The notes: a model not told the origin generated them from the letters alone. A DNA stretch of 64,000 nucleotides from Bdellovibrio reynosensis (GCF_022814725.1 NZ_CP093442.1:2294001-2358000), one strand, 5' to 3'. Positions 1 to 50,646 are shown, counted from the stretch's first letter. Numbers and translations: made by a program.

Positions 1-1162
1 TAAACATGTGGCGGTTCCCTGGAAAGATCTTCCAAAGACCTTTAGCAGTTAAAGCTTTCTCTGCGTTTTCATCATTTAGCTCAAAGCTTTCTTTGCTTCC
101 ATCAGCCGACACGTGACTTAAAATATATCTATTTAGAAAGCCCCACTTTTTCCATTTCTCTGCAACCCAGAAAGAAGTGGATTCAGGCTCGCCGAAGACA
201 CTATAATCCTTCTTAAAGCCCAGGGGATGATTGATGGTAATATCCTTAATTGGGCTTTCCGGCACCATCAACGGTTTTAAACTCCATTTTTCATTTCGAT
301 CCAACCAATCACTGATCTTAAAACCGATGAATAGATTTTCAGTCACAAAAAAATCTGAAAATTGTTCTGTCTTGAAATTCATTTCTAAGGGCTTTAAATC
401 CATCTGTTCAGGCTGAACCTTGTAGGCAGCTACATTTCTTGATTCACCCGAAGAATAAGCAAGAATTCCTGACTCAATTCGCACCCGCGCTTTCGTATTC
501 ACGAACTGGTTCTGGCAGCTTTCAACCTTTAATACATTCCCGGTTTCAACACCCATTAATGTATCAGGAGATTTAGGCATCTCTCGAGGAATCAATTCTG
601 ACAAAGAACCAATGTTATAAAATCCCAAGCGTCCTTTGGAATCCCAAAGCACTGCTACTTTTTGATTAAGTCGGGTCAGTTTTGTTTCGTCTTCCCACTT
701 CGCACCACACAGACCCAAACTTGTGTGCATAGCGATCCTTCCGTCTTTAACTGAAACCGGTACTATTCGACCTTGCCCGGTTTTGACGAAAGCCCAATCA
801 TCATAATTGCCGATAAGTTCATAGGTGTTTTCACCCACCGCAGTTAAGTAATTTTCTTTAGTACTTAACGGTTCCAGATAAGGGGTGAAATCAGCGCTAA
901 AAAGAAATTTGCTAACAAGCCACGTGTCTTTTTTGGGATTCAACATCGCGGCTATATATTCACCGTTTTTATCTCTGAATAAATGACTGATTAGTGAGGC
1001 CTCTTTGAATTCACCGTGCTTTTGAATTTTGCAAGACTTTAAAGGTTTCTCTTCAGGCATTTCTTCAAAAAGAATTGTAAATACAAGGATCAAAGCCAAA
1101 AACCCTGCAGCAATTGCTGGGATTTTAATAAACAACGGAAGAGCATTCTTTGAAGTTGTCAC
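1..1162 (-). CDS. Membrane-anchored exported protein of unknown function (3' part beyond window)
   Basis: An open frame of about 387 codons runs from a GTG at 1162 to the left window edge without a stop, so the C-terminus is missing. The GTG overlaps the TGA of the VWA gene in a GTGA arrangement, which indicates translational coupling as the last visible gene of the surface operon. Residues 8-24 form one hydrophobic segment (PLFIKIPAIAAGFLALIL), followed by an acidic and then polar region, so the protein is probably anchored in the inner membrane with its bulk in the periplasm. No catalytic motif or family is recognised. A beta-rich, propeller-like fold is possible from the alternating hydrophobic pattern, but that is a guess. 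Confidence 0.7.
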   Translation of the reverse strand, partial: MTTSKNALPLFIKIPAIAAGFLALILVFTILFEEMPEEKPLKSCKIQKHGEFKEASLISHLFRDKNGEYIAAMLNPKKDTWLVSKFLFSADFTPYLEPLSTKENYLTAVGENTYELIGNYDDWAFVKTGQGRIVPVSVKDGRIAMHTSLGLCGAKWEDETKLTRLNQKVAVLWDSKGRLGFYNIGSLSELIPREMPKSPDTLMGVETGNVLKVESCQNQFVNTKARVRIESGILAYSSGESRNVAAYKVQPEQMDLKPLEMNFKTEQFSDFFVTENLFIGFKISDWLDRNEKWSLKPLMVPESPIKDITINHPLGFKKDYSVFGEPESTSFWVAEKWKKWGFLNRYILSHVSADGSKESFELNDENAEKALTAKGLWKIFPGNRHMF

Positions 1163-2589
1163 TTTTTCACCTTATCGCAGCTAAGCCTTACAAGATCTTT
1201 GTTTGATCCCATGATAACATCTTTAAAAACACAAGATTTGTCGACACGAATTTCGTAAACACCTTTGCCTAACACCACTGGAAAATTGGTCAGATGGTTT
1301 CCTAAAAGCGCGACCTTTCCGTCATACACATAGACCCCACGAACTTTGGGATCATCGACAATAGCGGCCCCCGCTTCTTCAATATTGTAAACATATTCGG
1401 CGTTGGGAATAATCAGGTAGTTATCGATGACTTTTTCAAAAAATGGTTCTCGGTAAAATCGCAAACTCCAGCGTCCTTGCGGCAAGGCGACGCGGACATC
1501 ACTGGTAAATTTTCGCACAGCTTTCTTATTTTTATCTAGAAGCTCAATCTTCATCAACTTTTGCATAAAATTGGCTTGAAAATATCCGTCCCCTTTTACC
1601 CTCAGTGTAATTTTCTTTTTTGCGGGGATTGTGAACTTTTGAAACTTGTATTTTGGCTTTAAGTTTACAATGGCGACGTAATCTCCTGGCGGCACTTCAA
1701 TACCTAGGTTGGCTGGGAACTTCCGATAGATAATATCAGGGGAACTTGCCTTAAATAAAAAAACCGTGGCTTTAGGTTCCGGACTTTCGACAAAAAGATT
1801 CTTATTTGGATTTAACTTCTTATCAAGATCCTGAAAAAGTTCATCCAGCTGTTCTTCATTATCTGCTTGGTTCATATCGCCAATGCAGGCTAATTTTTTT
1901 AAAGTATCCAGCTGATCACGCAGACCAAATGCGACCACAAAGAATTTTATATCAACTGTCGATGCTTTCAACTGCTCAACTGTCTTACACGGATCTTGCC
2001 CACAGGTTTCTTCACCGTCAGTAAAAAGAACAATTCTTTTTGGACCATTGTAATCTTTAAGATCCTTGGTAGCATCGCGAAGTGCAAACGCCAAAGGGGT
2101 CATGCCAACGGGTTCAAAGCCCTTTACCACACCTTCAATAGCGCCCAAATTTCCTGACTTTGGCGGAATTGCTAAAAAGTTATCCTTACAATCTTTTTTT
2201 CTTCTGCCACCAAAAACACGAAGTCCGCTGGCTGCTTTTTCAGTCCACTGAGCCATCAGGTATTTGTTTAAGATTTTCTTTAAAACATATATCTTAGTTT
2301 TTTTACCGGTAAGAATCTGTCCCATGGAACCCGAACTATCGATAACATATTCCACCAATGGCGGAACTTGCTCTTTAAGTTCCTCTGCCGCCACTTCCCC
2401 GGTTAAATTTGCAGGGACATCTATCGGTTTGAAATCCATCTTATCTAAAAGATCCGAAGACTTTAGTTGAATAATTCCCTGCGGATCCACTGGTTCATCG
2501 ACAGCGGGAATGTTTGCATCTGAGCCTTCTTGTGCAAAAGCCACTGGAATAAAAGACAATAGAAGAGGAATAATGAACCATGATTTCAT
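1159..2589 (-). CDS. Exported von Willebrand factor A (VWA) domain protein
   Basis: 476 residues with a Sec signal peptide (about 1-20, cleavage after VAFAQ or nearby). A VWA domain spans about 77-260. The metal-ion-dependent adhesion site is complete: D84-x-S86-x-S88 in DSSGSMG, a Thr in GMTPLAFAL near 163, and an Asp in FTDGEETCG near 190. VWA domains with a MIDAS bind protein ligands through a divalent metal. The remaining 200 residues are beta-rich and unrecognised. The start ATG overlaps the stop of the upstream gene by 4 bases (ATGA). Its neighbours are FG-GAP lipoproteins, so it may be the partner of their beta-propellers. The periplasmic or surface location is inferred from the signal peptide. 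Confidence 0.85.
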   Translation of the reverse strand: MKSWFIIPLLLSFIPVAFAQEGSDANIPAVDEPVDPQGIIQLKSSDLLDKMDFKPIDVPANLTGEVAAEELKEQVPPLVEYVIDSSGSMGQILTGKKTKIYVLKKILNKYLMAQWTEKAASGLRVFGGRRKKDCKDNFLAIPPKSGNLGAIEGVVKGFEPVGMTPLAFALRDATKDLKDYNGPKRIVLFTDGEETCGQDPCKTVEQLKASTVDIKFFVVAFGLRDQLDTLKKLACIGDMNQADNEEQLDELFQDLDKKLNPNKNLFVESPEPKATVFLFKASSPDIIYRKFPANLGIEVPPGDYVAIVNLKPKYKFQKFTIPAKKKITLRVKGDGYFQANFMQKLMKIELLDKNKKAVRKFTSDVRVALPQGRWSLRFYREPFFEKVIDNYLIIPNAEYVYNIEEAGAAIVDDPKVRGVYVYDGKVALLGNHLTNFPVVLGKGVYEIRVDKSCVFKDVIMGSNKDLVRLSCDKVKK

Positions 2590-3764
2590 CGCGGTTTTAA
2601 TGCCTTTCCAATATAGTCATCCATTCGCAATCCCAAGGTCAGCTTAATGAAGTTTTGAGTTTCATTATACGTTTGCCCCTCTGGAATTTGCGTGAATCCA
2701 TCCACCGGATCAACGGTAGGACCACTAAAGCTGAACTGGCTTTGATTGACTCCGGTGCTTAGATCCAAAGACCATCTTTTGAAAAACGGAATGAAGCGTA
2801 AATGAAATAAAAATATCACACCCGCCTTCATTTCAAGGGCTGTCCCCGATCCACTGTCACCGCGAGTGACGCCTGTGTCTTTCACGGTATAAGAAGGAAA
2901 GTACGCGAGTTCAAAATAAGTTTTATTAAGTGACCAATCAAATCTTTGAATGGATTTAAAAAGATTGTCATTAAAAAGATAATGGAAGTTCGTCCCGAAT
3001 CCCATGCCTGAAGCAGAAGAAGACATCACGTATTCATCATCATTTTCTGTAGTAAAAGTAGAATTCTTGGAAATTAATTTTAATGTGGGACGCAGTTCTT
3101 TCCAGATAGGTAAGAAACGGTAATGAATGGCTAAGGAGCTTTCCTTATAACTGGTAGCCTTTGAAACTCGATTATAGGATTTCACAGGAACGTTGCCACC
3201 AGCGGCCTCGTATTCAATTCCGTAGCGCCAGACAAAATCAAAGTACCAAAGAAAGTGCGTAGATACGAAATCGTTGTTAAATATTTTATATTGGTTTGCG
3301 CTGTTGGGTGATTGACTTTCAAATTTCCCTTGATAGGGACCAAAATCCAAAACCATATACCCTGGTTCATAGGGATCCGGAACATCCTCACGAATTTCTG
3401 GAGACTTGTCAGGAGGAGGCTCGTCAAAAACTTGTGGATTTAACTTTGCTAAGGAAACAACAAGGTCTTTTGCTTTTGGGAACTTCGTGACCGAAGCGCC
3501 ATCCAGTAAGATCAACAGCTCATTATTTTGGATGTTTTCAACACTTCCCCGAGCGATGACTTCGATGTTGTCTTCAGAGGGTCTTACAACAACAACGAGC
3601 TCGCCAACTTTAATAAGTTTGTTATTCGGAATGACCGCGACATCATCCATCATTCGACGGATAGGAACAGCATTTTTCTTAATAAAAGAGGTGTCCGTTA
3701 TGGGATTTGCAACGGCGGTGAAACTTAAAAAAATAAGAATGAAAATACAAAGAAGAGGCCTCAC
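2586..3764 (-). CDS. Exported protein, probable outer-membrane beta-barrel
   Basis: 392 residues with an N-terminal signal peptide (hydrophobic 4-18, cleavage near AVANP). The first 130 residues contain a short beta-rich module with the phrase GELVVVVRPSED, which suggests a small binding domain. From about residue 140 the sequence alternates aromatic and polar residues (for example FLWYFDFVWRYGIEYE), as in outer-membrane beta-barrels, and ends in a basic tail rather than the usual terminal aromatic residue. It is translationally coupled to the VWA gene downstream (ATGA overlap) and lies 42 bases after the giant lipoprotein gene. It could anchor or export the neighbouring lipoproteins. No named family was recognised. 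Confidence 0.65.
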   Translation of the reverse strand: MRPLLCIFILIFLSFTAVANPITDTSFIKKNAVPIRRMMDDVAVIPNNKLIKVGELVVVVRPSEDNIEVIARGSVENIQNNELLILLDGASVTKFPKAKDLVVSLAKLNPQVFDEPPPDKSPEIREDVPDPYEPGYMVLDFGPYQGKFESQSPNSANQYKIFNNDFVSTHFLWYFDFVWRYGIEYEAAGGNVPVKSYNRVSKATSYKESSLAIHYRFLPIWKELRPTLKLISKNSTFTTENDDEYVMSSSASGMGFGTNFHYLFNDNLFKSIQRFDWSLNKTYFELAYFPSYTVKDTGVTRGDSGSGTALEMKAGVIFLFHLRFIPFFKRWSLDLSTGVNQSQFSFSGPTVDPVDGFTQIPEGQTYNETQNFIKLTLGLRMDDYIGKALKPR

Positions 3765-3806
3765 TGTTTAATGGTATGAGGCCCCTATGAAAGAAACAAT
3801 GTGAAA

Positions 3807-6800
3807 TTAGCGAGCTTTGAAAATTCGGCCCTTGCCGCGACTGACAAGAACAAGTTGCCCTGAAGAATATGCGATAATACTATCCACAGGGTCTTGAACG
3901 GAATTTGTGTACACATTGAAATTTGTTAAATCAATAGTGAACACTTGGTTTGAATCGCGCATTGTGCCGATCACCAGACGATCGTCTGCTTTGACCACCA
4001 AACGTTTGCCTGCGCCCGGCACGTCAAATGGTGATGAACTAATTTCATTCACTCCCACAAATTGAATATCGCCAACAACCGGTGTTGTTGCACCGCTATC
4101 AGGGAAGGTCGCAACACCACCCGTTCCAGATAACAAAATGATCACACGATTGGTAACCGGATCAATGGCAATATCGGTGGGCTTACAATCTTCGTGGGCG
4201 GGCACACCGTCATAAATCGGCATTGATGATAGTAGTACAGCAGCTGCCCCTGAACGAAGTGGTGCGACATTAAAGACATAAATTTTATGCGCAATCGATG
4301 GTGCAGTTTGCTGGGTTGTTACGTACAGTCGATCTATCGCACGGTTTAATGCCATTCCAGAGACTTTTTCAGTACCGAAATTTCTAATCAGCACTGGCGT
4401 CGCTGGAGTCAAATAGTCGTAATAAAGTTTATCACGGGCATCATTAGCAAAAAACACGTATAACGAATCCATTGATGCTGTTAAGCGATCATCAGAGCTA
4501 GCGTCACTTGTATAAAGCTGCAATGGACAATCACCGGTACATTTATTACCGCTGCTTAAAGCTAAGGTGGTAAAATCTGTGGCTGGGATACGTAAGGCTT
4601 CAGTAGTAACTCCGAACGGACCCGCTCTAGGAACTTGCGAAGTTAAGATAACATCAAAAGTAGTTCCAGTGGGTACTATCGCCATTCGATCCGTTTTAGT
4701 TCCGCTTAACCATGGCAAGTCCTCAAAGAAGTTCCACGGTGGATTTGACAGCGAACCATTTGGCTTAGTTACAGTGCCGTTTACAATCAACAAGTCCCAA
4801 AGGAAATGTTTCACGAAGACGCCAATCTTATAACTTCCAGAAAAGATAAGATGATCCATGGAATCCGTTCCTAGTGTTGTCGAGTGGGCGACTTCTGCAA
4901 GCCAGCTTAACTCATACGGATTTTGCGATGGTAAGCTTTGTGGGCGCGCGGTGAAAATATCAAAAAGCGTTTCACCCAATAAATAAGTATTTCTGATACG
5001 AATATTCCAGGTGCGGGAAGTCATGAAGTTTCCATCTGTCACTTCAACGCGGATTTTATATTCTCCTACTTTTAGTGGACCCGTTCCATCTGGATCTGCA
5101 GAACCATCCGTATCAGAAGGCTTAAATGAGTAGGTTGAGCCTTCGTCCGATTTTAATTCGTCATTTACATACCAACGATAAAATAACGTGTCGTTTGGAT
5201 TTGGATCCGATGCAGTCACCGATAAATTTAATAATTCCTTTTCCGCTACTAAAACATCAGTGGTTGCTGGTAACACTGCAGATATAACCGGTGACTCTTC
5301 AAATGGAGTTAAAGGATTTTGAACTTTCAAATAGAAGTGCGCGATATCTGAATCGCCAGTCACTGTATCTCGGACCTTAACGCGCACTAGGTTTCCTACT
5401 CCGTCCACAGGTGTGATGTCCCCTGGGTAGGCAGGATTCCAAGTGATGATACCTTTCTGCGCGTCGATACACATTCCATTAGCTTCACCGCAAGCCCGTG
5501 GCGAGTTTAACAGTGTATATTCTAATGGATTTTTTTGCGAATTATTAGCGATCACTTCATAGCGGAAGGGGTTGCTAGCCATGTTCGCTGATGTATGAGG
5601 CATAAAGTGAACTGGTACATTTGAGATGTTCACTCTTGGGCTTTCTAAGAATACTGGTGAAATAATTTTAAACCGTAACGGAGTCGCACTGACAGCCCGT
5701 GATAATGCCAATCCATCACGATTCGTATCGCCATTATCATTAACAAAGATTTCAGCAGAAAACTCGCCGATATGATTTCTTTGAGGACACCATTCTAAAC
5801 GGTATTTTTGTTTTAGAACGCCATTTTCCACTTCCGTGGGCCCAATCGCACTTAATTTTGGAACTGCTAAGTCTGCAATGACAGCTCCGCCACTTGAACA
5901 CTGTGTGATCGACATATTTTTCTGATAGCCAGGCTCAAAGGTCGTAAGCTCTTCTGCCCAGTATGCTGAAGTCGCATGACACACAAATGGATCTGCCGAG
6001 GCACCATCTAAAGTGGGATGCAATACTGTATTAGAGTTTGAATCCCGACATAATGTTAGTTTTGTCGCAAAAGTTCCCGCATCAGGAATGTAGGCATCAT
6101 TGTCATAAAGATAAAAATCTTTAGTAAAATATGTATCAGCATAAATAGTGAACTTATTGTCGGTAGCGATGGCACCAATAGTTGGCACCTGGTTATTATT
6201 GATCACTTTTATTTTATAATACGCGTAAGTAAACGTTTGCGCGTCAGGCATGGTCTTAGCATCATAAACTTTTACTTTGATAACAAAACCGTCATTGCCA
6301 GCAAATTTTTTCGCGTCTGCATCCGTTGGCTTCCAGACGATCTTGGCCGTTGTTTTACTTCCTGATGAAGCCGTCAGATTTTCACGCTTTTCAATATCAA
6401 TTTTTAAACCTGCTGGGGTTGGACGCCAAGTGGACGTCTTTACATCCCATACTTGAGAATCCAAATCAAAGTTGACGGTTTTTAACTCGCCACCTTTATC
6501 TGTGTCTTTTACATAAATACTATAAAAAGATTCCGTGTTTTCACTGTACTCTCCGACATAGATCGGATTTGTGTGAACAGTTCCAACTCCACCACCATAC
6601 GCGTTGAATGCGGAATCTGTTATGATAGGCGTATCATTCACTTCTTTTACATAAAGAGTTAAATTCGTTGATGAAGTTGCACTTCCTCCGTAAGCAAAAT
6701 GCTCTCTTATGGTCATCTTAAAGCTAAATGTGCCAGAGTAGTCATTCACGTGCGGAACGTAGCGCATATAACATTTTGCACTTTTAAAAAAGAATCTCCA

Positions 6801-9800
6801 AGCGACCGCCGGTGGATTCACGTTACACGCCGTACAAGCAGCAGCAAAGGCCCCCGGTTCGCGACAAAATTTATATGTTCCTGACGGTGCCGTCCCTTGC
6901 GCGACGACATCAAAGCTATAGTAATCGACGCTGTCTTTGGGATACCAATACTCATCTAAACTTAATAACGGAACTGGGATAGCTTGCGATGAATCTGAAA
7001 CTTCAATTAGGCCACCGGTTAAATTCACTCCTTCAGAAGCCTCAATCACCGGAGTTGAAATTAAGCGCGTCGGATTGTTTGAATCAGTGAAGCGTACTGT
7101 GATCACTCTTGAGTTCGCGTAAGGGGTCGAGGTTGTTTGCGCCAAGTTATCAATACGGCGAACCCAGATGTTTTTTAAAGTTTCGCCTGCGTTCATGATT
7201 AAAGCTTCCGCTAACTCATATCTCGTCATGTTCGCAGTGCGAAGCACAGTTCCCACAGGCAAAGTAAATGACGTCGCCGATGATGTGCGAGTAAATCTAA
7301 CTTTACCTTCGTGAACTATGATTGCCGTGTTTGTAACTTTTAAGGTCGTCGCTTCAGGTGGCAGAGCTGCATCAAATAATGTGATCGAATTCGCGGGAGC
7401 TCGATATCCATCTAGGCCACGAATTCTTAAAAGTTTATTTATCGTCGAAGCCGCTGTGCCAGGATTTCCTTTGCTTTCATTAAAGTCTATAAGGCCAGAA
7501 ACAGTTCTAGCAGTCATTGCAGGGCCAGCTATCACAGCACCTAAATTTAAAAGCTTATCGGCAGTCAAATTTAAAGTTCTTCGCCATACAGGCACTTTCA
7601 TTTCTGATGCACCAGCTGCTGCAGCAAAAGTAAAATCTGTCGGCACTTCGAATTCTATGCTTGGGTTGTTATTCGTTTTAACTATTGTGCCTCTTGGAAT
7701 CGCGACGGCACCGCCAGCAACCGTACGATAGAATGTCACAAGTCCGCGATCATCAATATTAGCTTCATTTTTAACTTTTAAATTGGCATCGCTCAATGCG
7801 GGAGTAATTAGATTCACGTTATTCACTGTGGCCGTGCGGTTTTTGCCTTTCACCGGCACGTAAATATCTAGATCGCCTGGTTCTACGGTCACGGCATTCA
7901 TAGTCTCAAATTCCATGACATAACCATTTTCAGCAACAGTTGAAGATAAAACAAAACCTTTAGGAATTGTCCTGTTCGCCGTATCTTCAGTCAGACGCGA
8001 AAACTTGACGTAACCTGCAATTCCGCCTGCGTTTGTCTCTGTGTTATAGTGAGTTCTAAAACACATTGTTGCCGCATTTTTACGGAATGTTGGTTCTGAC
8101 ATCGTAATATTACGTTTTAAAGTAATCGGCTGACCCGCAGTACAATCTTCAATATGTTTAAGCGCATCTAAAGAATTGTTACTAACAAAGCCATAGTACT
8201 CTATCCAAACCGGGTCCCCGTCGCGGTCAGAGCTACTGAAGTTACCCTTATTATTGGGATTCAACTCATTCAGGCTTAAAAGGAAATCCGTCGCTACTAG
8301 ACAAGGCTTTGTATTTCTGTTTTCGGCTGTCAAAGATAAGCTAATCGGTGGAGTTACTCCACCATGATTATCCCTTAAACTGACGATGAAAGTTCCCTTT
8401 AATAAAGCATGGGTCGGCTTCCACATGAAAGTTTGACGGATACGATCGGCTAAAACTACGGGATCCCCGACTTTACTAATATTGGAGTTAAGATTTCCGC
8501 CAGTAGTAAAAGTAATCTGATCTGGTGGGTTTGACGGGATATCCGCGACATTATCGGGATCTTGAAAGTCTAAATAAAATTGATATGGAGCAAGTCCATC
8601 CGTACTTTGCAAAGCGCAGTAGTCAAATTCAACAGCGGCATCAGCAATTGGATTAACTCCACCCAATAGGATCGGTGACTTGTTACTGTCACTTACACTG
8701 ACTGCAAGAGTCGCCATTGTTAACCCGGCATTATCATCTAATAACTCTAAAATAATTGAATTTGATTTTTTGCGCGCGTCTTCATTGTTCGGAGTCCAGC
8801 GAACTTGGATCTGATTTTTTCCGGTAATTTCAACAGGGGCTGCTTGACCGTCGATGTAAACTGGATTTGAACCTGTAAGGGCATCAACTTTTAATTTTAT
8901 ACCATCACCATCTGGATCGCTGTAAGAAACACTGCAAGTCCACTCTTCATTTTCTAAAGCACTTAATGTACATGAATGGGAAAATACGGGACGACGATTT
9001 ACGTTTTCAACGAAAACTGGCCAGTCTACCCGGGCAATTTTACCGCCATCAGAAACCAACACGCTTAGTTCATAGTTATCCGCTTTGCCATCTTCATAAG
9101 ATGGTTTAATGCGAGCGACACCTTCTTTAGCATCCACCAATGCGTCATCCCACATCCACGCATAAAACACTTGATCCCCATCGGGATCACGGGCAGTCGC
9201 TTTGACTTCTAAAACTTTTTCTTCCTGAACACGTTGCTGAACTACGCGAGTGGTTGATTTATCATCTAAGATTGGAGCACGATTTAGAATTCCGAAAGGG
9301 TATGGTTCTGATAAAACATCACCATCAGTATTAAAATCATAATTCAGGCTGAATTTTTTTAGGAAAGTCAAAAAGCTGGCGTCATTAGAAAGGCCATTTC
9401 TTAAAAAACGATACAAATGATCAGGATTGTAATTTTGATCGATTCCAAATAAGGCCATTCTTGAAGACTTGAATTTTTCAATCTCTACTAGAATTTCACT
9501 TACTTCAGAAGCTGTGAAAGTAGCAAGATCCCGATCTGGATAGGAAGACAGAAGATTATAAACTAAGGTTGTCTCTAGGGTCGGCTTAATAATTTGTTCT
9601 GGATAAACTAGTGCAAACCACGGCGTGGTTCTATATTCCATGACGATTTTCGCGACTAGGGCTCCGCTGGGCTCAAGGCCTTTGGGCATAATCTGTTTAA
9701 TCAAACTTGGTTTGTTGTCAGTCGTAAGATCTAAAAGATTTTTTGTTTTCTTATCTGCTTGAACAAATTCAGTTAGATACAAAGAATATTTATTGTCACT

Positions 9801-9938: not shown

Positions 9939-9967
9939 AAACTTGTAATCCCCCAAGTAACGTTCCA

Positions 9968-12900
9968 CTAATACAACATAAAGAAAGTACCTATATTGAT
10001 CCCTTTTAAAGGATCAAATCCATCATGGCGTGACGAAGGAACCATAATATCTAAAGTTCCATCCCCGTTAACATCACCCGAAGATGTATTTGAATAGAAA
10101 TATTCCGGCTGCACTTCTGTATCTTCAGATGAGATAATAAACGGCTTCACTTTACCTGAACTGTCAGTGACTACGACAGAGTCAGGATAATCTTCAGAGT
10201 GCAATCCTGAATTCGATCCAAAGAATACAACCCCACGACCTAAATTCGTGACAGAGTTTATTTGATCATCCCAACCCATTGCTCCTAAAATCAGGTCATC
10301 AAAACCGTCGCCGTTGAAGTCAGCTTTTTTCGCGCGACCACCAAATACGGTCAATCCGGTGTAATCGTATGATCTTGCATCCCAAGCATAGAAAGCTTGC
10401 GGAGCAGGCTTCGCAGTACCCGATGAACGCACGCATCCTGGCAGTGGTGAAACAGCAATATTAGGATCAGAAAACTCAAGCTGCTTATTAAGGTTATCTT
10501 CAAGATAATCCCACATGGTGGTTACGTTGTCAGAGCCACAAATCGGACCATAATAAACATAACCAGTTCCAGAGCGATCCAATCCCGCTTTAGGAGTTTC
10601 AAACGGAGCAGAGACGAAAAGATCTTCGTAACCATCGTTATTTAAATCGCCTGCGGCTGAAACTTTCCAACCAAAATGGCGTCTAGTTTGATTTTGAAAT
10701 AATGATCCATCAAATAAAGGTGGCATCAGTGCGCGCACACCATTTGATAAACCATCTTGATCTAAGGAAGCATCTAGGCTTTGCCATAGGTTATCGTCTG
10801 TACATGAGTTCGCATTATAATTGTTATTATAATATGAATCTCTGGAAGCAGCTATAAGACCATTTGCGCTTCCTTTATAAATGAACACGCGGCCATAGTT
10901 AAAACGCGCATCCGTGTCGATATCATAATAACAAGCGATATCTTCCCAACCTGGCGCTGAAACGATCATGTCATCATAACCATCCTTATCGATATCCAAA
11001 ATCGCTACACTAGCACCGAATTGATGTTTCATGCGGTGATAACCATAATCCACGTTTTTAATCATTGGACTATACAAGAATTGCATTTTACACGTGTTTG
11101 CTGGTGCACCACTGCACGGCTGACTTGCGACGGGAACGCCTTCAGTACCGTAAGTATCAATCATGTAAGTCGTATTTGTGGAAGCCAACGCATTCGTGAC
11201 CGAAGGTTCATCAGGATATGTTCCATTCGAATATCCCTTTGTGCGCGGAGTTTGCACCCCGTTAGTTGAACCATAATAGATCCACACACGTCCCATCTGG
11301 TGAGCATTAACTCCATTAAGACAGTCAGGATCCGCTTCGGGTAAACACATCCATCCAGAGTTTCCTGCCAATGCAGTGCCATCGGCTCCCGTCGTGTCTA
11401 CCCATCCACCAGTGCGATTCATATTATTAAATGCAGACGCTGTCGGATTTGTGATAACGATGTCAGAAACGCCGTCACCATTAAAGTCCCCAGCATAAAC
11501 GATTTCACGGAATTGAGGATCCAGATCATCTAAAAGATCCACGTCAGATCCCGTCATTCCCATCCAACGTTTAGAAATAATTTGCGGATCACCATAAGCT
11601 GGAACCCACTGAGGATTATTTACAGCTTGCAGGCCACCACGTGATCCGTAGTAAACCACTGCCTGCCCATTGGTATTATAATCAATGAACATAACATCAG
11701 CAAAACCATCACCGTTCGCATCGTTAACGTTAAAGGCTCTTTGCGCCCAGCTCGCTGACATATTGGTTGGTTTTGTAATAAGCTGAGGCAAAGCGATATC
11801 TTCTAACGTCACACCTTGCGCAGGAGCGCTAGAAGGGAAACAATACACATCACTTTGGCTTGTCGGCTTAAAGACGCGAGTCAGATTTTCTTTACAGAAT
11901 GACGTTGTCACTAAACCAATCTTTGAACCGTAAAACACAACAGCATCCGTCGTATAAGTAGTGCTGTTTGCTGACGGACGAGAAATCTTAGCAACAGCAT
12001 CTGCATAACCATCGCGGTTAATATCGCCTACGATTCGAATAGATTCATAACCCAGATTTTGCGAGCTTGCTAAACTATCAGTCAAAGTCACCGAAGGAAC
12101 CGAGTTTACCGACGACAGTGGTTGACCACTGCTATAATAACCATAAACTGCACCGCCACCATTTTTCGTAGACTTATCTAAAAACGCACCAGCCATAATA
12201 TCATTTAAAGGTGTCGTCCCTGTAAAGTCGCCGTCGAAGTTACCAACCGTCACCGAACGACCAAAGTAGTCGTAGGCTTTGGCGTTGGTATTGTAAGAAT
12301 GTAAGAAGTTCGATGTCAGACCCACACCAGTTAAACTTGTAAATGCAAATACCGCCCCTGAATTTGTCGCACGGGTAGCATCACCAACAGCCCCAACAAC
12401 AACGTCTTTAAGACCATCCCCAGTGATATCACCCACTGCCATGGCCTCTGGATCTTTTCCAAGAAGTGAATTGGCAGCAATGGAATTAGACCGAATCAAA
12501 GTAGGTGCACACTTCTGTTTTGTTGCGTTGTTATTCACAGTGAACGAATCACACTGTGCAATTGTATCGTTCCAATCCAAATCTTTGTTCGTCGGCGACA
12601 CCGCATCGATTTGATAGAAAGCATTGTAAGAATAATATTTCCACTGATTACCGAAATAAACCCACAAAGCGCCAGAGTTTGTCTTTTCAAAATTGCTAAA
12701 GTAGCTGGCAGAAACCACGGCTTCAGCAAATCCATCAGCGTTTGAGTCTGACTTATTAGTGATAGCTGTGTTCGTCGCATCAAAACGACTTGAATCACCC
12801 ACAAGGGCTACTGAAGTACCAAAGCCTGCACTTGTTAATTTTTTGCCAGTGCCATCATCTTTATAATAACTGCGTGGGAACAAGACGCGGAAGCTTGAAG

Positions 12901-15175
12901 GATCAACAAAACACGACAAGTGAGTTGGGGTATCCATCTTGCGCAATCCACACTTCCAGAAGTTAGCGCGCGATGGGGTTTCAATTGGATCAGCAGAACC
13001 CGTAGCACCACGTCCAAAATAAACATATGCGGCGCCAGGTGCAGTACCAATAGCTGAATTCGATCCATTCATCGGCATGCCATAGTAGTTGTTACCATTG
13101 GCAAAGGCGGTAGCGCCGTTCCAGCCACCATCAGCAGGCGTGATCGTTGTACAATTTGGACAGATGCCTTGAACTTTTAATTTGAAATTAGTTGCACTTG
13201 CATTTGGATAACGGTCGCCTGGTGCCCCAACGATAAAATCAGATCCACCAAAAAGTTTATTATCAGAACGGCGAACCCTGTAAAGGCCATCGACGTCAGC
13301 GCCGCCTGAAATAGAGTGACCAAAACGAGCCCCATTATGCGGAGCCGGAGCGTAGATCTTTAAGAAACGAAACTTTGAATCCGACCCAGACGGAATCCCT
13401 GTGGCAAATGGAGTTTCGTAACCTACACCATCTTTAGATCCAAAATACAACGCCACATAACCCGTTGCTAGTTCGTACTTCGCATCCCCTGGTAAACTTG
13501 GTGAAGCAACGCCATCCCAGTCGCCTTTAGGAACACCAATACCAATGTCATCATACCCATCGGCATTGATATCGCCGATAAAACTGACTGAATATCCAAA
13601 TTCAGGATCATCAGTGATTTGAACTTTTTTAGAATCATCCCAATAAGCAGCAGGATAAAGTTTCATGTTTGCCCATAGCTGAACTGCAGAACATGTCGCA
13701 CCTTCGACCAAACCGTTACATGTTTCTACGTTTTGCTGAAGATCCTTAATTCGATTCGGTGATTTTAAGCCTTGAGGACTACCGAAGAAGGCAAAGGCAG
13801 TACCATCATAACGAATATTATTGCCGGTGATATCAAAACCCGGAGCACCAACAAGCAAGTCTTGGCAAGCCTTACCTAAGATACTGTCGCCATTGATATT
13901 ACCGCTACCACTTAAAGACTTACCGAATTTTGAGCGATGGGTTAAATCTTCAAAAGTAATAACTTGCGGGTCTTCACCCGGCTTCACTGGATTTCGCGAC
14001 GGAGTCGGAGTTGTTTTCAAAGAAAACTGAGATGAACCACTTGGTTTATAAGAATAATAAATATAAACCGCACCCGCAGATTCTTCTTTTACGCCAAGGT
14101 TAGCAATTGAAACCGACGGAAGACCGACAGCCATATCAGGATAACCATCACAGTTAAAATCCCCAGAAGTCAAAGCCTCGCCCATAAATGAAATACCAGA
14201 GTCTGCAGCTGACATCGGTGGAAGTTCATTGAATGTCGGAATACCTTTAATATAAGTGCTTAAATTATCAAAAATCAGGGTTTCGTTTTTAACACCATCG
14301 TTATAATTTACATGGATTGAAAGATCATCCACTTTGCCGATGTTCAGATTTGCTGAAGAAGAAAAAACGATCGTTCCAGAACCCACCATAGGATCGGATA
14401 CAGGTGTAGAGCCTTTGTAAACACGGCTGGTATAAAATTCATTTTTATATTCTGTATTAACAACTGGAGTTACCTTTGCAAATGGCAACGACCCAATTGA
14501 AATCGGACTTAATTCATAAGCTGGGGTTGGGAACGATGAATTTGTCGAAGCTGTCACAACCTTCGTTGGACGTTCATAAGTTCCATCAAGATATTTAACT
14601 TGAACTACAAAGTGATAACGAGTTGAACCTTCTAAACCTCTGAATACATATTTTGTGTCAATCGCAGTCGCATCAGGGGTTGCCCAATTCGCCGTGTTGG
14701 TCGCAGTGGGATCTTCATACTTTTTATAAAAGATTTGATACTCTTCAACTTTATTTGGATAAACCCATGAAACCACCAGATTTCCATCTGAATCCTTGAT
14801 CACTGCATCAGAACCAGAAAAAGGAGTTAAAGTGATCGCACTTAGTTCTTTATTACCACCAACAGAAGTTGAACCATCCGTACCAACGACCTTGAATGTG
14901 TATGATGTGTTTGGATCAAGATCACGAATAATAGCTTCACTAAATGAAGTCGTCACTAAAGCTTCAGAGGAAAGATTATAAAAAACTTTATACTCTCTAT
15001 ACCGGATATGGTTATTCCAATAAACACGCACTGCTGTTGGCGATAACACCTCTACGCCTTCAACCCCAGAGAAATCCTTTAACAAGCTTCCGGTTTCAAT
15101 TTTTTCCGTACAAGCACCAGTAAAAATCAATGATATCAGTAACGCCAAGAGCGTGATATTTTTAGTAAAGGACAT
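9968..15175 (-). CDS. FG-GAP (integrin alpha-like) repeat lipoprotein, paralogue 2
   Basis: 1735 residues from the ATG at 15175, which has AGGAG six bases upstream; a TTG at 15193 extends the frame but lacks support. Signal peptide with lipobox IFTGAC. Residues about 35-215 hold two fibronectin type III-like domains (REYKVFYN, EEYQIFYKKY). From about 340 to the C-terminus there are a dozen or more FG-GAP repeats with calcium loops such as GDFNCDGYPD, GDINADGYDD, GDLNNDGYED and GDVNGDGTLD, enough for about two seven-bladed propellers. It is a paralogue of the upstream gene and overlaps its end by 14 bases. Surface display is inferred. The FG-GAP family mediates protein or cell binding in integrin alpha chains. 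Confidence 0.88.
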   Translation of the reverse strand: MSFTKNITLLALLISLIFTGACTEKIETGSLLKDFSGVEGVEVLSPTAVRVYWNNHIRYREYKVFYNLSSEALVTTSFSEAIIRDLDPNTSYTFKVVGTDGSTSVGGNKELSAITLTPFSGSDAVIKDSDGNLVVSWVYPNKVEEYQIFYKKYEDPTATNTANWATPDATAIDTKYVFRGLEGSTRYHFVVQVKYLDGTYERPTKVVTASTNSSFPTPAYELSPISIGSLPFAKVTPVVNTEYKNEFYTSRVYKGSTPVSDPMVGSGTIVFSSSANLNIGKVDDLSIHVNYNDGVKNETLIFDNLSTYIKGIPTFNELPPMSAADSGISFMGEALTSGDFNCDGYPDMAVGLPSVSIANLGVKEESAGAVYIYYSYKPSGSSQFSLKTTPTPSRNPVKPGEDPQVITFEDLTHRSKFGKSLSGSGNINGDSILGKACQDLLVGAPGFDITGNNIRYDGTAFAFFGSPQGLKSPNRIKDLQQNVETCNGLVEGATCSAVQLWANMKLYPAAYWDDSKKVQITDDPEFGYSVSFIGDINADGYDDIGIGVPKGDWDGVASPSLPGDAKYELATGYVALYFGSKDGVGYETPFATGIPSGSDSKFRFLKIYAPAPHNGARFGHSISGGADVDGLYRVRRSDNKLFGGSDFIVGAPGDRYPNASATNFKLKVQGICPNCTTITPADGGWNGATAFANGNNYYGMPMNGSNSAIGTAPGAAYVYFGRGATGSADPIETPSRANFWKCGLRKMDTPTHLSCFVDPSSFRVLFPRSYYKDDGTGKKLTSAGFGTSVALVGDSSRFDATNTAITNKSDSNADGFAEAVVSASYFSNFEKTNSGALWVYFGNQWKYYSYNAFYQIDAVSPTNKDLDWNDTIAQCDSFTVNNNATKQKCAPTLIRSNSIAANSLLGKDPEAMAVGDITGDGLKDVVVGAVGDATRATNSGAVFAFTSLTGVGLTSNFLHSYNTNAKAYDYFGRSVTVGNFDGDFTGTTPLNDIMAGAFLDKSTKNGGGAVYGYYSSGQPLSSVNSVPSVTLTDSLASSQNLGYESIRIVGDINRDGYADAVAKISRPSANSTTYTTDAVVFYGSKIGLVTTSFCKENLTRVFKPTSQSDVYCFPSSAPAQGVTLEDIALPQLITKPTNMSASWAQRAFNVNDANGDGFADVMFIDYNTNGQAVVYYGSRGGLQAVNNPQWVPAYGDPQIISKRWMGMTGSDVDLLDDLDPQFREIVYAGDFNGDGVSDIVITNPTASAFNNMNRTGGWVDTTGADGTALAGNSGWMCLPEADPDCLNGVNAHQMGRVWIYYGSTNGVQTPRTKGYSNGTYPDEPSVTNALASTNTTYMIDTYGTEGVPVASQPCSGAPANTCKMQFLYSPMIKNVDYGYHRMKHQFGASVAILDIDKDGYDDMIVSAPGWEDIACYYDIDTDARFNYGRVFIYKGSANGLIAASRDSYYNNNYNANSCTDDNLWQSLDASLDQDGLSNGVRALMPPLFDGSLFQNQTRRHFGWKVSAAGDLNNDGYEDLFVSAPFETPKAGLDRSGTGYVYYGPICGSDNVTTMWDYLEDNLNKQLEFSDPNIAVSPLPGCVRSSGTAKPAPQAFYAWDARSYDYTGLTVFGGRAKKADFNGDGFDDLILGAMGWDDQINSVTNLGRGVVFFGSNSGLHSEDYPDSVVVTDSSGKVKPFIISSEDTEVQPEYFYSNTSSGDVNGDGTLDIMVPSSRHDGFDPLKGINIGTFFMLY

Positions 15176-18100
15176 AGACCACTCCTGTCGCAAATGCTTT
15201 TCCAGATGGATGGCCCCGACCAGGCGCAGCCATTAGCAAGTCGGCAACTCCGTCGCCGTTGATGTCTCCACTCGCAGAACTTGAAATATAAGATCCTTCA
15301 AAAGCCACTCTTTCTGGCAAATAAATCAAAGAAGGCTCACACACAGGTGTTGAACCGCCATAACATCGTGGCGTCGGTGAAGCCGTAGCATTGATCTTAA
15401 GTCCCAATGGACCACCGTAATAAACAACGAATGCGCCAGTATCTTCTAAGATCTCTTCTAGATCATAATCTTTACCAGTCATATTCACGACGATATCGGC
15501 ATAACTGTCGTTATTGATGTCACCTACGGCAGCTACTCCATATCCAAAATAATCCGTAGCGGTCAGCGCACCTAAAGAGATCGGGGCAATTCGCTGAACT
15601 TTCGGTTGAGTACCAGTCGCGTGAAGAGTGTTTTCCCCAATAGGACTGCTAGCAAAGAAGTCAGAAGAAAGAATACTTGCAGCACCATAGAATGCATACA
15701 CAGTTCCCACTTGTGCCCCATAGAACGCATAAACCTTTGATGACGCGGGCCCAGAAACTACAAGGTCCGTCAATGTATCGCCATTGATGTCACCTGGAGC
15801 CACCACATCATAGCCGAATTTCTCTCCGGCTGTAGCAGGATCCATTTTTTGAAGTGGCGTATACACTAAACCTTTATTGCTTCCTTTAAATAAGTAAGCA
15901 CGGCCTTTGTTGGCGTTAAATTGAGGATCTCCAACGACGAGCTCATCGGTTTCATCACCGGCTAAATTGTCTAAAGATTTTAACCCAGTTAAGCTCCACC
16001 CAAACATCACCCCGATATCCGGAGAAGCAAGAATTTGAACTTTACAAACCTTTGGTGTCGTATCCGTGCAAGGGTTTTCTACAACGACATCCGCAGCACC
16101 CCCGGCACCATCATCCAATCTTAATGTTCCATTAGATCTATTCGTCTGAGGTCCAATATTTGAACCGTAGAACACATAAATACGGCCGTTATTTGAGTTA
16201 GAGAAATCAATTCCTACTGGAATTACGCCGGCAGCGGGTTCATCTGTTGTGTTAGTCGCAATCGCAAAATCGCTATAACCGTCTTTATTAAAATCACCAT
16301 AAGTAGCCGCGCGATTGCTTGTGCCGTAGTTAGTAATATTTAATGCCGAAATAGATGAAGAACCCATCATCACACCGGATGTGTGAAAGTTGGCCGTATT
16401 AGATCCGCCGGAAATCGCGAACTTCAGTGGATTTTGACCCACCGGCGCCAATGAAGGAGCATTACCTGATACAACCCCACTTGAAGATCCGTAATAGATA
16501 TATGAACCGTAATAGCCAATTATCAAAATGTCATCATAAGCATCGCCGTTCACACTGCCAATGCGATAGAACTCTTTACCAAATCCAGGATCAAGATCAA
16601 CAACAAGCTTTAATGGTTCACCAACAGCAGCTGGACTGCGTGCAGGATCCGGTGATGTCACTAGTCCCGAAGAGCTTCCATAATAAATTGCTAACTCTAC
16701 TGTGTTTGCGACAGAGATATGCGCTGCCATGTCGTCATATCCGTCACCATTCACGTCGCCGATAATTTTCGCACGTTCAAAGTGATAGTTTAACTCTTTA
16801 CCAAAGTTAACATTCAAAGTTTTATCTGGCACTGACACTGAAGAAGCAAACGAACCATTAGAATTAAAGATAAAACCAGCGCCGTTATAATAAGTCGGAC
16901 TTGATTGGAAAGGTGCAGAAGTAAATAGGTCACCGGTACCATCGCCGTTGAAGTCGGCTCCGCCAGCACCGCCAAAGCCAAACATCGCGCCTGCGGTTAA
17001 ATCCTTAGCATATATAATAGAAGCACCAAATGGATTTACGCCACCGCTATACCATGTACAGCCTGTAGTACATCCTAACGAATCATCATCAGATAATTGC
17101 GGAGAATCAATACGAGTTGCACCTTCATAACCTAAAGCTGAAACATCGGGCTTATAAAGATAAATCACACCGTGGTTCATCAGCTGTTTTTTACCATCAC
17201 TGCTAGCAACAGTGCGATAAGGTGCTGAAACGGCAAACGAAGGAAGTCCGCGGGAAACAGATTCAATATCATCCATTGTTCCAAGTGAATATCCAAATTG
17301 AACGCCAGATTCGGCAGGACTTGTGTGAATCACTTGATTTTCACAGTGCTGTAAAGCGCCTGTTGTTACGTTGGTATTCCGGGCGTTACAGGCAATACGA
17401 TTGACTGCCGTGATATCTTGTTGTGGAGCTAATATTCCTAATATGCCACCCGTTGTAAAATCATTCGAACGAGGAGTCATATAATAACCAAAAACCGCGC
17501 CCGCAGTAGTACTGCCAGACACTGTCGATCTTGGAGCTCCTACAAAAACAGCTCCAGAAATATTTGGTGTAGTATTAACCGCACCAATAATATTAGTTAA
17601 CGGATAACCGTTTTGGTTTGGAATACCTAAGATGCTTGCCCCATAACCAAGAACATTGATGTGAGTCGCTTCAGGGCTTCCGCCACCGGCAACGTCCGGA
17701 TAGGATTCTTTACAGGTCCAACCCAGGATTTTTTGCTTATCTGTACCTGAATCAAGCATGTCACCTTTACAGACAATAATCGAACCGCGACCTGCTGCTC
17801 TGTCAGGGACACCAATTACTAAGTCATCACACTTAGTAAAATCGTAACCTTTTTCGGCAGGAGCTGGAGTCGTACGGAACACCCAGCTTCCGTTGTTCAC
17901 ACATTTTCTAGAATTAAACGCAGTACCGATCGCGCCACCGAAATCTTCGGTGACACTTTTACCCACAAAGGTTCCATCAGTAAGATCACCAAGAGCCAAT
18001 GATTCTGCATCAATGATCGCATGAGTTTTGGCATTTGAAACTGGCAATAAACCAAAGCGGTCACCACGCAATACATGCACTTGGCGCACTGACGTGTTTA

Positions 18101-19823
18101 ATTGAACAGCCATTGCTAAATCGTCATAACCGTCGTTGTTGTAATCACCGAAAACGATGGATTCAACATTGTAGGTAGTTGAATTTTTATATTTAGCAGG
18201 ACGGCACTTAAACGACGTTGGATCACAGGTAGCTTCATTTAAACCATATGAATTGCCGCCAGAACCAGTCACTAAACCTTTTACTGGATCACCGAACACA
18301 ACAAAGACCGACCCTTCGGCAGTTTGGATTGCTAAGTCATCACAAGTGTAAATCTTTTTAATTTTATTAATATTCGCCGGTGGTGTCGCCGGAGTGAAAA
18401 GATCGTCACACAAACCGACGCGATTAGCTTTTGAATCGGCTAGATCTGTGTAACGGCTAAAACAGTCACCATTCACATTTCCTACCGACAAACGCTGCCC
18501 GAGACGAGTATTTGATGAAAGACCTGTATAATAGATCAACTGAGCATTCGGAAAAGAATTATCCGCACTTGGAGAAACATCAGTCTTTAAAGTGGGAGCC
18601 GGATCAATTGGATTTCCATTAGCATCAAATCCTGGAGGAGCATCGTAACCGTAGTAAACAACAACCGCACCGCCAGATTCATAATGGCGCTCACTAACAT
18701 AAGGGGTTGCTCGCGGTGCTGCCATTGCAACGTCTTTCAAACCATCACAGTTGAAATCACCAACAGACACATTATAACCAAGCTCTTGCATTCCTAAACC
18801 GCCACCCACGAGACGAGGAATGATCGGTGCTTTGGCACCAGCACCATCAAGACTGCGAATCAAAGGCTTCGTGATGCCCGAAGATCCATCCAACAAAACG
18901 TCAACGATAGTGACTTTGCCAGTCGTATCTGAAACCTTTGCATACATATTTTTAGAACCCGGCGAAATCGGGATGATCGAACGGAAATAATCATTGCCAT
19001 TCACAGTGGCTAAACGAATATCCGTAAAGCGCTCAAACACTTCCGTTTTATACGTGGTATCGCCACCTTCGGTCCAAAACCAAGGGAAGTTTCCGATAAA
19101 TGCTGAATTGATTTTTACTGTCGGTAAATTTGTTAATTGGGATTGAACCAAAACACAAGGGGCTTTGGTGTTGATGTAAGCTTCGGCCATATTTGTAGGC
19201 TCATAAGTTTCATCTTCATAGTGAGCCATCACCCAAAAACAGTATTTTGCACCACTAGCAAGAGACGTAACACCCACAGTGCTTTTATCAATAGCAGTTG
19301 CTGTCGGTGTTGAAAGATCCCACGTTTCACTTTCACGTTTGGTGTAAACTTTGTAAGTGACATCGTCACCGTTTTTAACCCAGTTTACCTCCACCGTCCC
19401 GTTGGCCTGTGCAGTTAAGCCCGAAGAAGGAACACCGGTGAAAGTCGCCATTGTTTTTACGGGAATAAAATTCTCAAAACCAAATTCTTCATCAGTTAAA
19501 GCATCAACACCCGTAACAGAAAAATCATAGTAAGTATCCGGGGAAAGGCCCGTGATATTCGTCGTCGCAAAAGTTTCAACCTTCACTGGCGTATTAAAGC
19601 CTTTGCGGTAAATTCGATATTCTTTAAAGCGCGCCTGAAGCGACCAAGAAAGTTTCACCGTCGTTGGTGAAATTGCTACCGCCGAACTAAGTCCTTCGAA
19701 CTTAGATGGTAACGTGGTTCCCTGCAGCCCTGCTTTTGAGCAAGATACTGCCGTCAATCCTATAACGATCCACAGTATTGTTAATAAGCACTTCATAGCT
19801 TTCATCAGTATATAGATCGGCAT
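15162..19823 (-). CDS. FG-GAP (integrin alpha-like) repeat lipoprotein, paralogue 1
   Basis: Up to 1553 residues. The start is uncertain: ATGs at 19823, 19805 and 19796 all precede the signal peptide and none has a clear Shine-Dalgarno. The lipobox is TAVSC. Two fibronectin III-like domains occupy about 40-215 (FKEYRIYRKG, VTYKVYTKRE). FG-GAP repeats follow from about 350 to the end, with calcium loops such as GDFNCDGLKD, GDYNNDGYDD, GADFNGDGTGD, GDVNGDGYDD, GDFNKDGYSD and GDINGDGVAD. It has the same order of domains as the next gene, so the pair arose by tandem duplication. It is the first gene of the minus-strand surface operon. A candidate promoter with a palindrome lies about 115 bases upstream. 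Confidence 0.87.
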   Translation of the reverse strand: MPIYILMKAMKCLLTILWIVIGLTAVSCSKAGLQGTTLPSKFEGLSSAVAISPTTVKLSWSLQARFKEYRIYRKGFNTPVKVETFATTNITGLSPDTYYDFSVTGVDALTDEEFGFENFIPVKTMATFTGVPSSGLTAQANGTVEVNWVKNGDDVTYKVYTKRESETWDLSTPTATAIDKSTVGVTSLASGAKYCFWVMAHYEDETYEPTNMAEAYINTKAPCVLVQSQLTNLPTVKINSAFIGNFPWFWTEGGDTTYKTEVFERFTDIRLATVNGNDYFRSIIPISPGSKNMYAKVSDTTGKVTIVDVLLDGSSGITKPLIRSLDGAGAKAPIIPRLVGGGLGMQELGYNVSVGDFNCDGLKDVAMAAPRATPYVSERHYESGGAVVVYYGYDAPPGFDANGNPIDPAPTLKTDVSPSADNSFPNAQLIYYTGLSSNTRLGQRLSVGNVNGDCFSRYTDLADSKANRVGLCDDLFTPATPPANINKIKKIYTCDDLAIQTAEGSVFVVFGDPVKGLVTGSGGNSYGLNEATCDPTSFKCRPAKYKNSTTYNVESIVFGDYNNDGYDDLAMAVQLNTSVRQVHVLRGDRFGLLPVSNAKTHAIIDAESLALGDLTDGTFVGKSVTEDFGGAIGTAFNSRKCVNNGSWVFRTTPAPAEKGYDFTKCDDLVIGVPDRAAGRGSIIVCKGDMLDSGTDKQKILGWTCKESYPDVAGGGSPEATHINVLGYGASILGIPNQNGYPLTNIIGAVNTTPNISGAVFVGAPRSTVSGSTTAGAVFGYYMTPRSNDFTTGGILGILAPQQDITAVNRIACNARNTNVTTGALQHCENQVIHTSPAESGVQFGYSLGTMDDIESVSRGLPSFAVSAPYRTVASSDGKKQLMNHGVIYLYKPDVSALGYEGATRIDSPQLSDDDSLGCTTGCTWYSGGVNPFGASIIYAKDLTAGAMFGFGGAGGADFNGDGTGDLFTSAPFQSSPTYYNGAGFIFNSNGSFASSVSVPDKTLNVNFGKELNYHFERAKIIGDVNGDGYDDMAAHISVANTVELAIYYGSSSGLVTSPDPARSPAAVGEPLKLVVDLDPGFGKEFYRIGSVNGDAYDDILIIGYYGSYIYYGSSSGVVSGNAPSLAPVGQNPLKFAISGGSNTANFHTSGVMMGSSSISALNITNYGTSNRAATYGDFNKDGYSDFAIATNTTDEPAAGVIPVGIDFSNSNNGRIYVFYGSNIGPQTNRSNGTLRLDDGAGGAADVVVENPCTDTTPKVCKVQILASPDIGVMFGWSLTGLKSLDNLAGDETDELVVGDPQFNANKGRAYLFKGSNKGLVYTPLQKMDPATAGEKFGYDVVAPGDINGDTLTDLVVSGPASSKVYAFYGAQVGTVYAFYGAASILSSDFFASSPIGENTLHATGTQPKVQRIAPISLGALTATDYFGYGVAAVGDINNDSYADIVVNMTGKDYDLEEILEDTGAFVVYYGGPLGLKINATASPTPRCYGGSTPVCEPSLIYLPERVAFEGSYISSSASGDINGDGVADLLMAAPGRGHPSGKAFATGVVYVLY

Positions 19824-19935
19824 CTATCTATGGAATTAAACTAAGGAATTACCTCTAAATGGTACAGTCTAGGTGTTCCCCTATTTCACAGGCCTTTCGT
19901 CCGTAGAAAGAGGCAGTGTCTCAAATGTGAAATCC

Positions 19936-20961: not shown

Positions 20962-20965
20962 GGAC

Positions 20966-21376
20966 CTAGCCAGCTTTCAAAGCAGGCGTTGCTTGCGCAA
21001 TCGCTTTGCTTAGTTTTTCCTTTAAACCTGCAGGAGTAAATGGTTTAGTTACATAGCCAGAAACACCAAGAACGACAGCCTCTTTCACTTGTGACGCTTC
21101 AGTTTCAGCAGTAACAAGATAAAAAGGAGTTTTAGCGATTGTTGGTGTAGAACGAACATGCTTAAGCAAGTCGATACCTTTCATCACTGGCATATTCCAG
21201 TCAGAAACTATCAAGTTATACGGCTTTCCTTCAGCGATTGCTTTTTGAACCAATTCCCAAGCCAAAGCACCATTTTCTGCTTCACTTACTTGGAAAGAAC
21301 CAAGTTCAGTCAGTGCCTTCATCACAATTTTTCTCATGGAGCGCATGTCGTCCACTACTAAAATTTTTAATTCCAT
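20966..21376 (-). CDS. cheY: CheY-type single-domain response regulator
   Basis: 136 residues from the ATG at 21376, which has a GGGGGG Shine-Dalgarno eight bases upstream; a TTG two codons earlier is less likely. The protein is a single receiver domain with acidic pair D9-D10, phospho-acceptor D59 in VSDWNMP, T89 and K111 in GYVTKPF, so all active-site residues are present and there is no output domain. It lies between cheR and the CheX fusion. It is expected to take phosphoryl groups from the CheA encoded 5 kb upstream in the same operon. The target (flagellar switch, gliding machinery or other) cannot be read from the sequence. Confidence 0.9.
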   Translation of the reverse strand: MELKILVVDDMRSMRKIVMKALTELGSFQVSEAENGALAWELVQKAIAEGKPYNLIVSDWNMPVMKGIDLLKHVRSTPTIAKTPFYLVTAETEASQVKEAVVLGVSGYVTKPFTPAGLKEKLSKAIAQATPALKAG

Positions 21377-21396
21377 ATTCAAAACCCCCCGGTTTT

Positions 21397-24187: not shown

Positions 24188-24196
24188 AGTTTAGCC

Positions 24197-26137: not shown

Positions 26138-26167
26138 ATCCGTTACGTCCTTTTGTTGTTAAAAATT

Positions 26168-26629: not shown

Positions 26630-26632
26630 TTA

Positions 26633-50631: not shown

Positions 50632-50646
50632 GGGGCCCCCTGTACT

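Follow-up and report, generated by a model that had tools for sequence, protein, structure and literature searches.

A review of April 2026 calls the gliding motor of Bdellovibrio and its adhesins unidentified (PMC13104615). An Agl-Glt-like locus, Bd0828-0838, has been proposed as the gliding locus of these bacteria (PMC3169522), and genes induced on surfaces include aglQ (bd1480) and a VWA gene, bd3099 (PMC9140294). Here we analyze a 64,000-nucleotide stretch (the window, G000:C1:2294001-2358000) of the 3,582,323-base genome of Bdellovibrio reynosensis, which begins with an operon for surface proteins; a stator, MotA and MotB, and a protein in which parts of FliF and FliG are fused are encoded immediately downstream, just outside the window (G000:C1:2286651-2293441). 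We conclude that this cluster probably encodes an ion-driven motor of the cell envelope that derives from the flagellum and is coupled to a complex of surface adhesins. Comparisons were made with 24 genomes of the genus and 369 genomes of the phylum Bdellovibrionota. The Agl-Glt loci of Bdellovibrio are separate from this cluster, and Agl-Glt remains the rival candidate for the gliding machinery.

Comparison with described motors and adhesins

Much of the cluster's motor resembles that of flagella. MotA is of the MotA/PomA type, MotB has a plug and a peptidoglycan-binding OmpA domain, the FliF RBM3 domain, second transmembrane helix, and FliG N, M, and C domains are collinear, and the charges of the torque helix are partly kept. 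In contrast to the flagellar arrangement, RBM3 and FliG form one polypeptide with a signal peptide and without RBM1/2 or the first transmembrane helix, and giant surface proteins are linked to the motor instead of FliM, FliN, rod, hook, and export genes, which were not recognized in the cluster. The Agl-Glt system of Myxococcus with CglB likewise combines an ion-driven inner membrane motor with outer membrane barrels, TPR proteins, and a VWA surface adhesin (PMC13104615, PMC3169522), but the motor of the cluster is of the MotAB/FliG type, not AglRQS (TolQR type), and FG-GAP and Ig-like giant lipoproteins are added. No NCBIfam match to Glt or CglB families was obtained among the cluster proteins, although the presence of models for all of these families was unchecked.

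The type IX secretion system (T9SS) gliding machinery of Bacteroidota (GldLM motor, SprB track) shares the concept of a rotary ion-driven motor that moves surface adhesins, whereas the stator and rotor of the cluster are flagellar relatives; Pfam and NCBIfam scans of the main cluster proteins gave no match to GldKLMN or SprB, for which no dedicated search was made. The likeness to integrins lies in FG-GAP propellers that are closest to integrin alpha in the Protein Data Bank (PDB) and in a VWA domain with a full metal ion-dependent adhesion site (MIDAS) on a partner protein. The differences are that these are bacterial lipoproteins and an exported protein, and that a Pfam scan of the VWA protein found no hybrid, PSI, or I-EGF domain, so that VWA, whose models alone matched, is the only integrin-beta hallmark. 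Because the defining features of the flagellar motor, Agl-Glt, and integrin families were tested and not found in full, the cluster is not classed in any of them, though it would work like a flagellar or gliding motor.

A fused rotor and stator linked to a surface operon

The downstream genes encode MotA, MotB, p209, p193, a TPR/PEGA lipoprotein, a 320-aa protein, a 576-aa rotor, and a SpoIIE phosphatase; p209 and p193 are, judging from their sequences, probable small outer membrane barrels. The 576-aa protein opens with a signal peptide, then has a periplasmic part that leads into a transmembrane helix, and ends with FliG N, M, and C domains (FliG_M, 9e-9; FliG_C, 3e-8; FliG_N, 3e-7), and its profile matches the FliG of T. 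maritima at 1.8e-31. Residues 15-147 of its AlphaFold model resemble the FliF RBM3 S-ring of the Vibrio and Salmonella MS-rings (Z about 10-11, rmsd 2.4-2.9; in one comparison, Z 11.0 and rmsd 2.6 over 101 aa with 26% identity), and residues 267-575 match FliG (Z 10-14). Because of these two fold matches, the protein as modeled is the C-terminal part of FliF (RBM3 plus transmembrane helix) fused to FliG, a natural fused rotor. No description of a FliF-FliG fusion in Bdellovibrio was found in the literature examined, and a contig scan with two short peptide patterns, which does not establish absence elsewhere, returned no rotor homologs outside Bdellovibrionota.

Residues central to a stator are conserved in the cluster, namely the SYAD channel aspartate of MotB, the MotA prolines, and the peptidoglycan-binding motif, and in the rotor, charge is kept at the torque-helix positions equivalent to R281 and D289 in 12/12. 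Residue numbering is based on the E. coli contacts quoted in PMC12505986. The FliF and FlhA of the genome are encoded elsewhere, away from the cluster, and among the neighbors examined, in which not every open reading frame was scanned, no FliM/FliN, rod, hook, or type III export gene was recognized.

An initial annotation of the window had described seven closely packed minus-strand genes in positions 1-19823; gene calling reproduced the packed run but resolved it into six genes, the last of which overruns the window edge and ends at G000:C1:2293945, 56 bases beyond it.

15162..19823, minus strand: FGA, 1553-aa lipoprotein with fn3 and 7 FG-GAP repeats, an integrin-alpha-like propeller
9968..15193, minus strand: FGB, 1741-aa lipoprotein with two fn3 stretches and 8 FG-GAP repeats
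3807..9968, minus strand: IGL, 2053-aa putative lipoprotein with weak PKD/cadherin/tandem-95 similarity
2586..3764, minus strand: OMP, 392-aa outer membrane beta-barrel with an N-terminal periplasmic beta domain, from model and Foldseek
1159..2589, minus strand: VWA, 476-aa exported VWA protein with a complete, invariant MIDAS
1..1162, minus strand: G6, N-terminal membrane anchor and no known domain; the window holds the first 387 of 405 aa

In this order the genes are spaced by -32, -1, +42, -4, and -4 bp, and because of these gaps a single transcript from FGA to G6 is likely. Six further genomes of the genus have the same operon order and a seventh has fragments of it, and thus the arrangement is not due to chance; orthologs of FGA occur in 8 genus genomes as well as in other families.

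Most of the surface domains that had been recognized in the initial annotation were recovered by profile and structure comparison. Pfam confirmed the combination of FG-GAP repeats with fn3 in two lipoproteins, FGA (7 repeats, E=8e-40) and FGB (8 repeats, E=1.5e-49), both with lipobox-like N termini (Cys28 of FGB is invariant in 9 homologs). When the FGB profile was compared with solved structures in the PDB, integrin alpha-V/IIb was closest (E=5e-14), and the cation-binding loops that are a feature of the integrin FG-GAP beta-propeller are present. The VWA domain (E=4e-8) indeed has a complete MIDAS, the residues of which (D84, S86, S88, T164, and D191) are invariant in ten VWA homologs, including a member of a second class of motor module (see below), although the VWA profile had no significant match in the PDB. 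The predicted outer membrane barrel was also borne out, as the 392-aa OMP models as a 10-stranded barrel with an N-terminal periplasmic beta domain (pLDDT 78) and Foldseek matches it to OpcA/OmpT/FadL barrels. Of the giant Ig/cadherin-like lipoprotein, the 2,053-aa lipoprotein itself is present, but its Ig/cadherin label is backed only by subthreshold matches (PKD, 6e-4; Cadherin_4, 0.05; tandem-95, 2e-7). The bd3099 gene was considered as the VWA gene of the operon and, from its number and position, judged to be a different gene. A literature search by neighboring HD100 locus tags turned up no report on the surface genes of the cluster.

Surface and motor genes are inherited together. Within the genus, FGB, IGL, VWA, the fused rotor, and the MotA2 ortholog all occur in the same 9/24 genomes, and MotA2 orthologs (63% identity or more) are found only in these nine. 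At the scale of the phylum, 26/369 genomes, spread over five families and seven genera, have a full-length or nearly full-length fused rotor, and FGB is present in 24/369, every one of them (24/24) among the 26 rotor carriers (Fisher p about 1e-35, phylogeny ignored). The two rotor carriers without FGB are G312, in which the contig breaks off within the cluster, and G310, which is 84% complete. VWA was found in 25 of the 26 fused-rotor genomes; its dismissal as a noncore component, from a first 40-kb view (family f22), was overturned, as the VWA-OMP pair lies just beyond that stretch.

The OMP-VWA, FGA, FGB, MotAB, p209, p193, TPR, and rotor genes lie within about 30 kb, with order and strand reshuffled. 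The sets FGA-FGB-IGL, OMP-VWA, and MotA-MotB recur with p209, TPR, p193, and the rotor in G004, G202, G205, G206, and G243, and also in G244, G305, G315, G316, and G319, some of these with assembly gaps. Because the linkage survives reshuffling of order and strand, it points to a shared function. Conserved synteny in other Bdellovibrionota, on which the initial annotation had made its proposal of an adhesion complex depend, was therefore found, and that proposal stands insofar as FG-GAP, VWA, and outer membrane barrel genes are linked phylum-wide, even on opposite strands, but it missed the MotAB and FliF-FliG genes downstream. As the FG-GAP, VWA, and OMP genes are conserved together, including the opposite-strand cases, it is plausible that their products form one complex. 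A conserved adhesin complex is likely, and the partner that defines it appears to be a motor of the flagellar type.

In a MotA tree, the MotAs of the cluster and those of a second, paralogous class of motor module form one clade, from which the flagellar MotAs of the genus are separate. Second-class modules comprise TPR', a 575-627-aa rotor', an ~200-aa protein, MotA', MotB', and often VWA' and PP2C'. Homologs of their rotor occur in about 45/369 genomes, one of which (G015) has three copies of the module, and the second-class and fused rotors are homologous over 505 columns (hhalign 98.9%, E 3e-17). The large neighbors of these modules vary (He_PIG, fn3, fn3+TIG, Big_9, or a Peptidase_S74 protein). 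VWA' proteins adjoin He_PIG/fn3/Big_9 proteins, and since no FG-GAP was found among the neighbors scanned, pairing with FG-GAP is not obligatory for this VWA family. A constant motor beside varying surface proteins would be the look expected of a machine that drives adhesins.

One of the G015 modules adjoins a 1390-aa Peptidase_S74 (fiber chaperone) protein (L133:13832-18004, minus strand); a Peptidase_S74 C terminus is of the kind seen in trimeric phage-like fibers. In the genus, the rotor gene comes with a gene for a HAMP-SpoIIE phosphatase (L015:6849-8600, plus strand) that resembles SiaA, a regulator of biofilms (6e-30), and relatives of this phosphatase are found with several second-class modules. 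The distal end of the motor cluster holds a gene for a 1080-aa lipoprotein (L015:292-3534, plus strand) that looks RCC1-like by sequence; beside the cluster in G004 lies a gene whose product resembles it weakly (28% identity over 407 aa).

Proposed mechanism and competing explanations

Sequence and fold comparisons support the identity of the parts, namely the gene content, the domains, the fused-rotor architecture, and the stator channel residues, and co-inheritance supports that they belong together. From these parts we infer ring assembly, rotation, force generation, a force path, surface location, and a role in gliding or prey contact, as follows. The operon would supply the adhesive part of a machine that spans the envelope, its outer half, and the adjacent flagellum-derived motor would be the inner half. 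MotA and MotB would act as an ion-driven stator, with MotB anchored to peptidoglycan, and the RBM3-transmembrane-FliG fusion would form a ring in the inner membrane. Ion flow would turn MotA, which would push the FliG face of this ring. The force may then be relayed by the periplasmic ring of RBM3 domains, with the TPR lipoprotein and the small probable barrels, to the OMP/VWA pair and onward to the FG-GAP and Ig-like lipoproteins at the surface. Adhesion would come from these lipoproteins together with VWA, and the adhesins, moved or placed under tension, could let the cell glide slowly over a surface or make contact with prey actively.

A more ambitious statement is that a flagellar motor has been reduced to a stator and a fused MS/C-ring, without filament or export, and rewired to interchangeable surface adhesins for gliding or prey engagement, and that this went unnoticed as the stator was filed as flagellar; we regard this as a serious possibility that falls somewhat short of being probable. 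The relative G006 is presumably the laboratory strain HD100, as its MotA loci at 0.13, 2.92, and 3.17 Mb fit the three motAB pairs, and we take the MotAB of the cluster to be bd3020/3021 of that strain. The locus thus offers a complete and testable list of candidate parts in a genome that is presumably HD100, and if the proposal is correct, one of three stator pairs treated as flagellar in the literature would be reclassified. A natural FliF-FliG fusion, and the co-option of a rotor and stator from the flagellum in a setting that has none, would also bear on the evolution and reuse of flagellar motors.

Several observations weigh against a motor of this kind. The sequence-profile match of the rotor N terminus to Bdellovibrio FliF is weak (P=0.001), and for this reason the RBM3 assignment rests on the fold comparison; the pTM of the fused-rotor model is low (0.31), and hence we claim its domain folds and not their relative placement. 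The rotor is without FliF RBM1/2 and the first transmembrane helix, FliM and FliN were not recognized in the cluster, and the equivalents of FliG D288 and MotA E98 are not conserved. The cluster is absent from 15/24 genus genomes and is thus not a universal Bdellovibrio gliding engine, though it may be an additional one. FlhA was found in 17/18 carriers tested, and since the lone exception, G215, is an 84%-complete assembly, no carrier among the 18 is cleanly without a flagellum. Each motAB pair reportedly contributes to motility, a finding attributed to Morehouse in 2011 that speaks against an exclusively nonflagellar role. The pair that we take to be that of the cluster, bd3020/3021, has been described as a flagellar stator that contributes to swimming (Morehouse 2011, cited in PMC11323537 and PMC12827227), and the pairs bd3020/3021 and bd3253/3254 are named in PMC11323537.

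The alternative that survives best, which we nonetheless consider unlikely, is a static integrin-like head in which FG-GAP propellers and the VWA MIDAS bind ligand while the motor genes serve something else. It accounts for an FG-GAP profile nearest to integrin alpha-V/IIb, for an invariant MIDAS, and for the phylum-wide linkage of OMP, VWA, and FG-GAP genes, but it does not account for the near one-to-one correspondence of the fused rotor and MotAB with the FG-GAP genes, or for related VWA proteins that sit beside related motors with no FG-GAP in the neighbors scanned. With MotAB and the fused rotor next door, the likely nature of the system therefore shifts from static adhesion to a motor-coupled complex.

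We find it improbable that the cluster is an ion-driven export or assembly platform, in which MotAB and an RBM3-FliG ring would power the insertion or translocation of giant lipoproteins in a Tol/Ton-like manner and not motility. The stator is of the PomA/MotA type with a FliG partner, not of the TolQ/ExbB type, and the layout of ring and stator is that of a rotary motor, even though several small probable barrels and TPR/PEGA lipoproteins in the core, and large cargo that varies beside a constant motor, are what such a platform might show. Least probable in our judgment is that MotAB2 is an ordinary third flagellar stator, the fused rotor a flagellar accessory or relic, and the surface operon an unrelated, adjacent adhesin cluster: nearly all carriers have flagella, and motA2-bd3021/motB2-bd3020 are treated as flagellar stators in the literature and rise in expression in a fliL mutant (PMC11323537), but co-inheritance and linkage persist after rearrangement in five families, the MotA clade is separate from flagellar MotAs, FliL-Bd1076 bound MotB3 and not MotB2 in a two-hybrid assay (PMC11323537), and the fused rotor cannot enter a normal ring without displacing FliF and FliG.

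Possible regulatory sites and other loci in the window

Upstream of the operon, one short element recurs.

19831..19867, minus strand: CTGTACCA-N24-TTCCA, preceding FGA in 7/8 genus genomes

This element is a possible operator or promoter candidate. The motif CTGTACC also recurs near the divergent MotA/p148 promoter region (gap in G002, G006, G011, G012, and G022), and the CTGTACC/CTGTACCA sites at the two places are possibly a shared regulatory site. Scans for sigma-70 promoters and terminators gave no excess over the chance level, and an Rfam scan of the window returned nothing but one tRNA.

Directly upstream of the operon in B. reynosensis lies a chemosensory cluster (window 20110-29446, minus strand) with genes for CheX, CheY, CheR, a 279-aa protein, CheB, a PAS-MCP, a 153-aa protein, and a CheA-response regulator hybrid. 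It could control the motor in this genome; it was considered as a part of the machine and not counted, as it adjoins the operon here and not in the stretches of relatives examined. Farther along the window, at 49108-53819 on the minus strand, SpoVR and PrkA genes are near neighbors, separated by a single gene.

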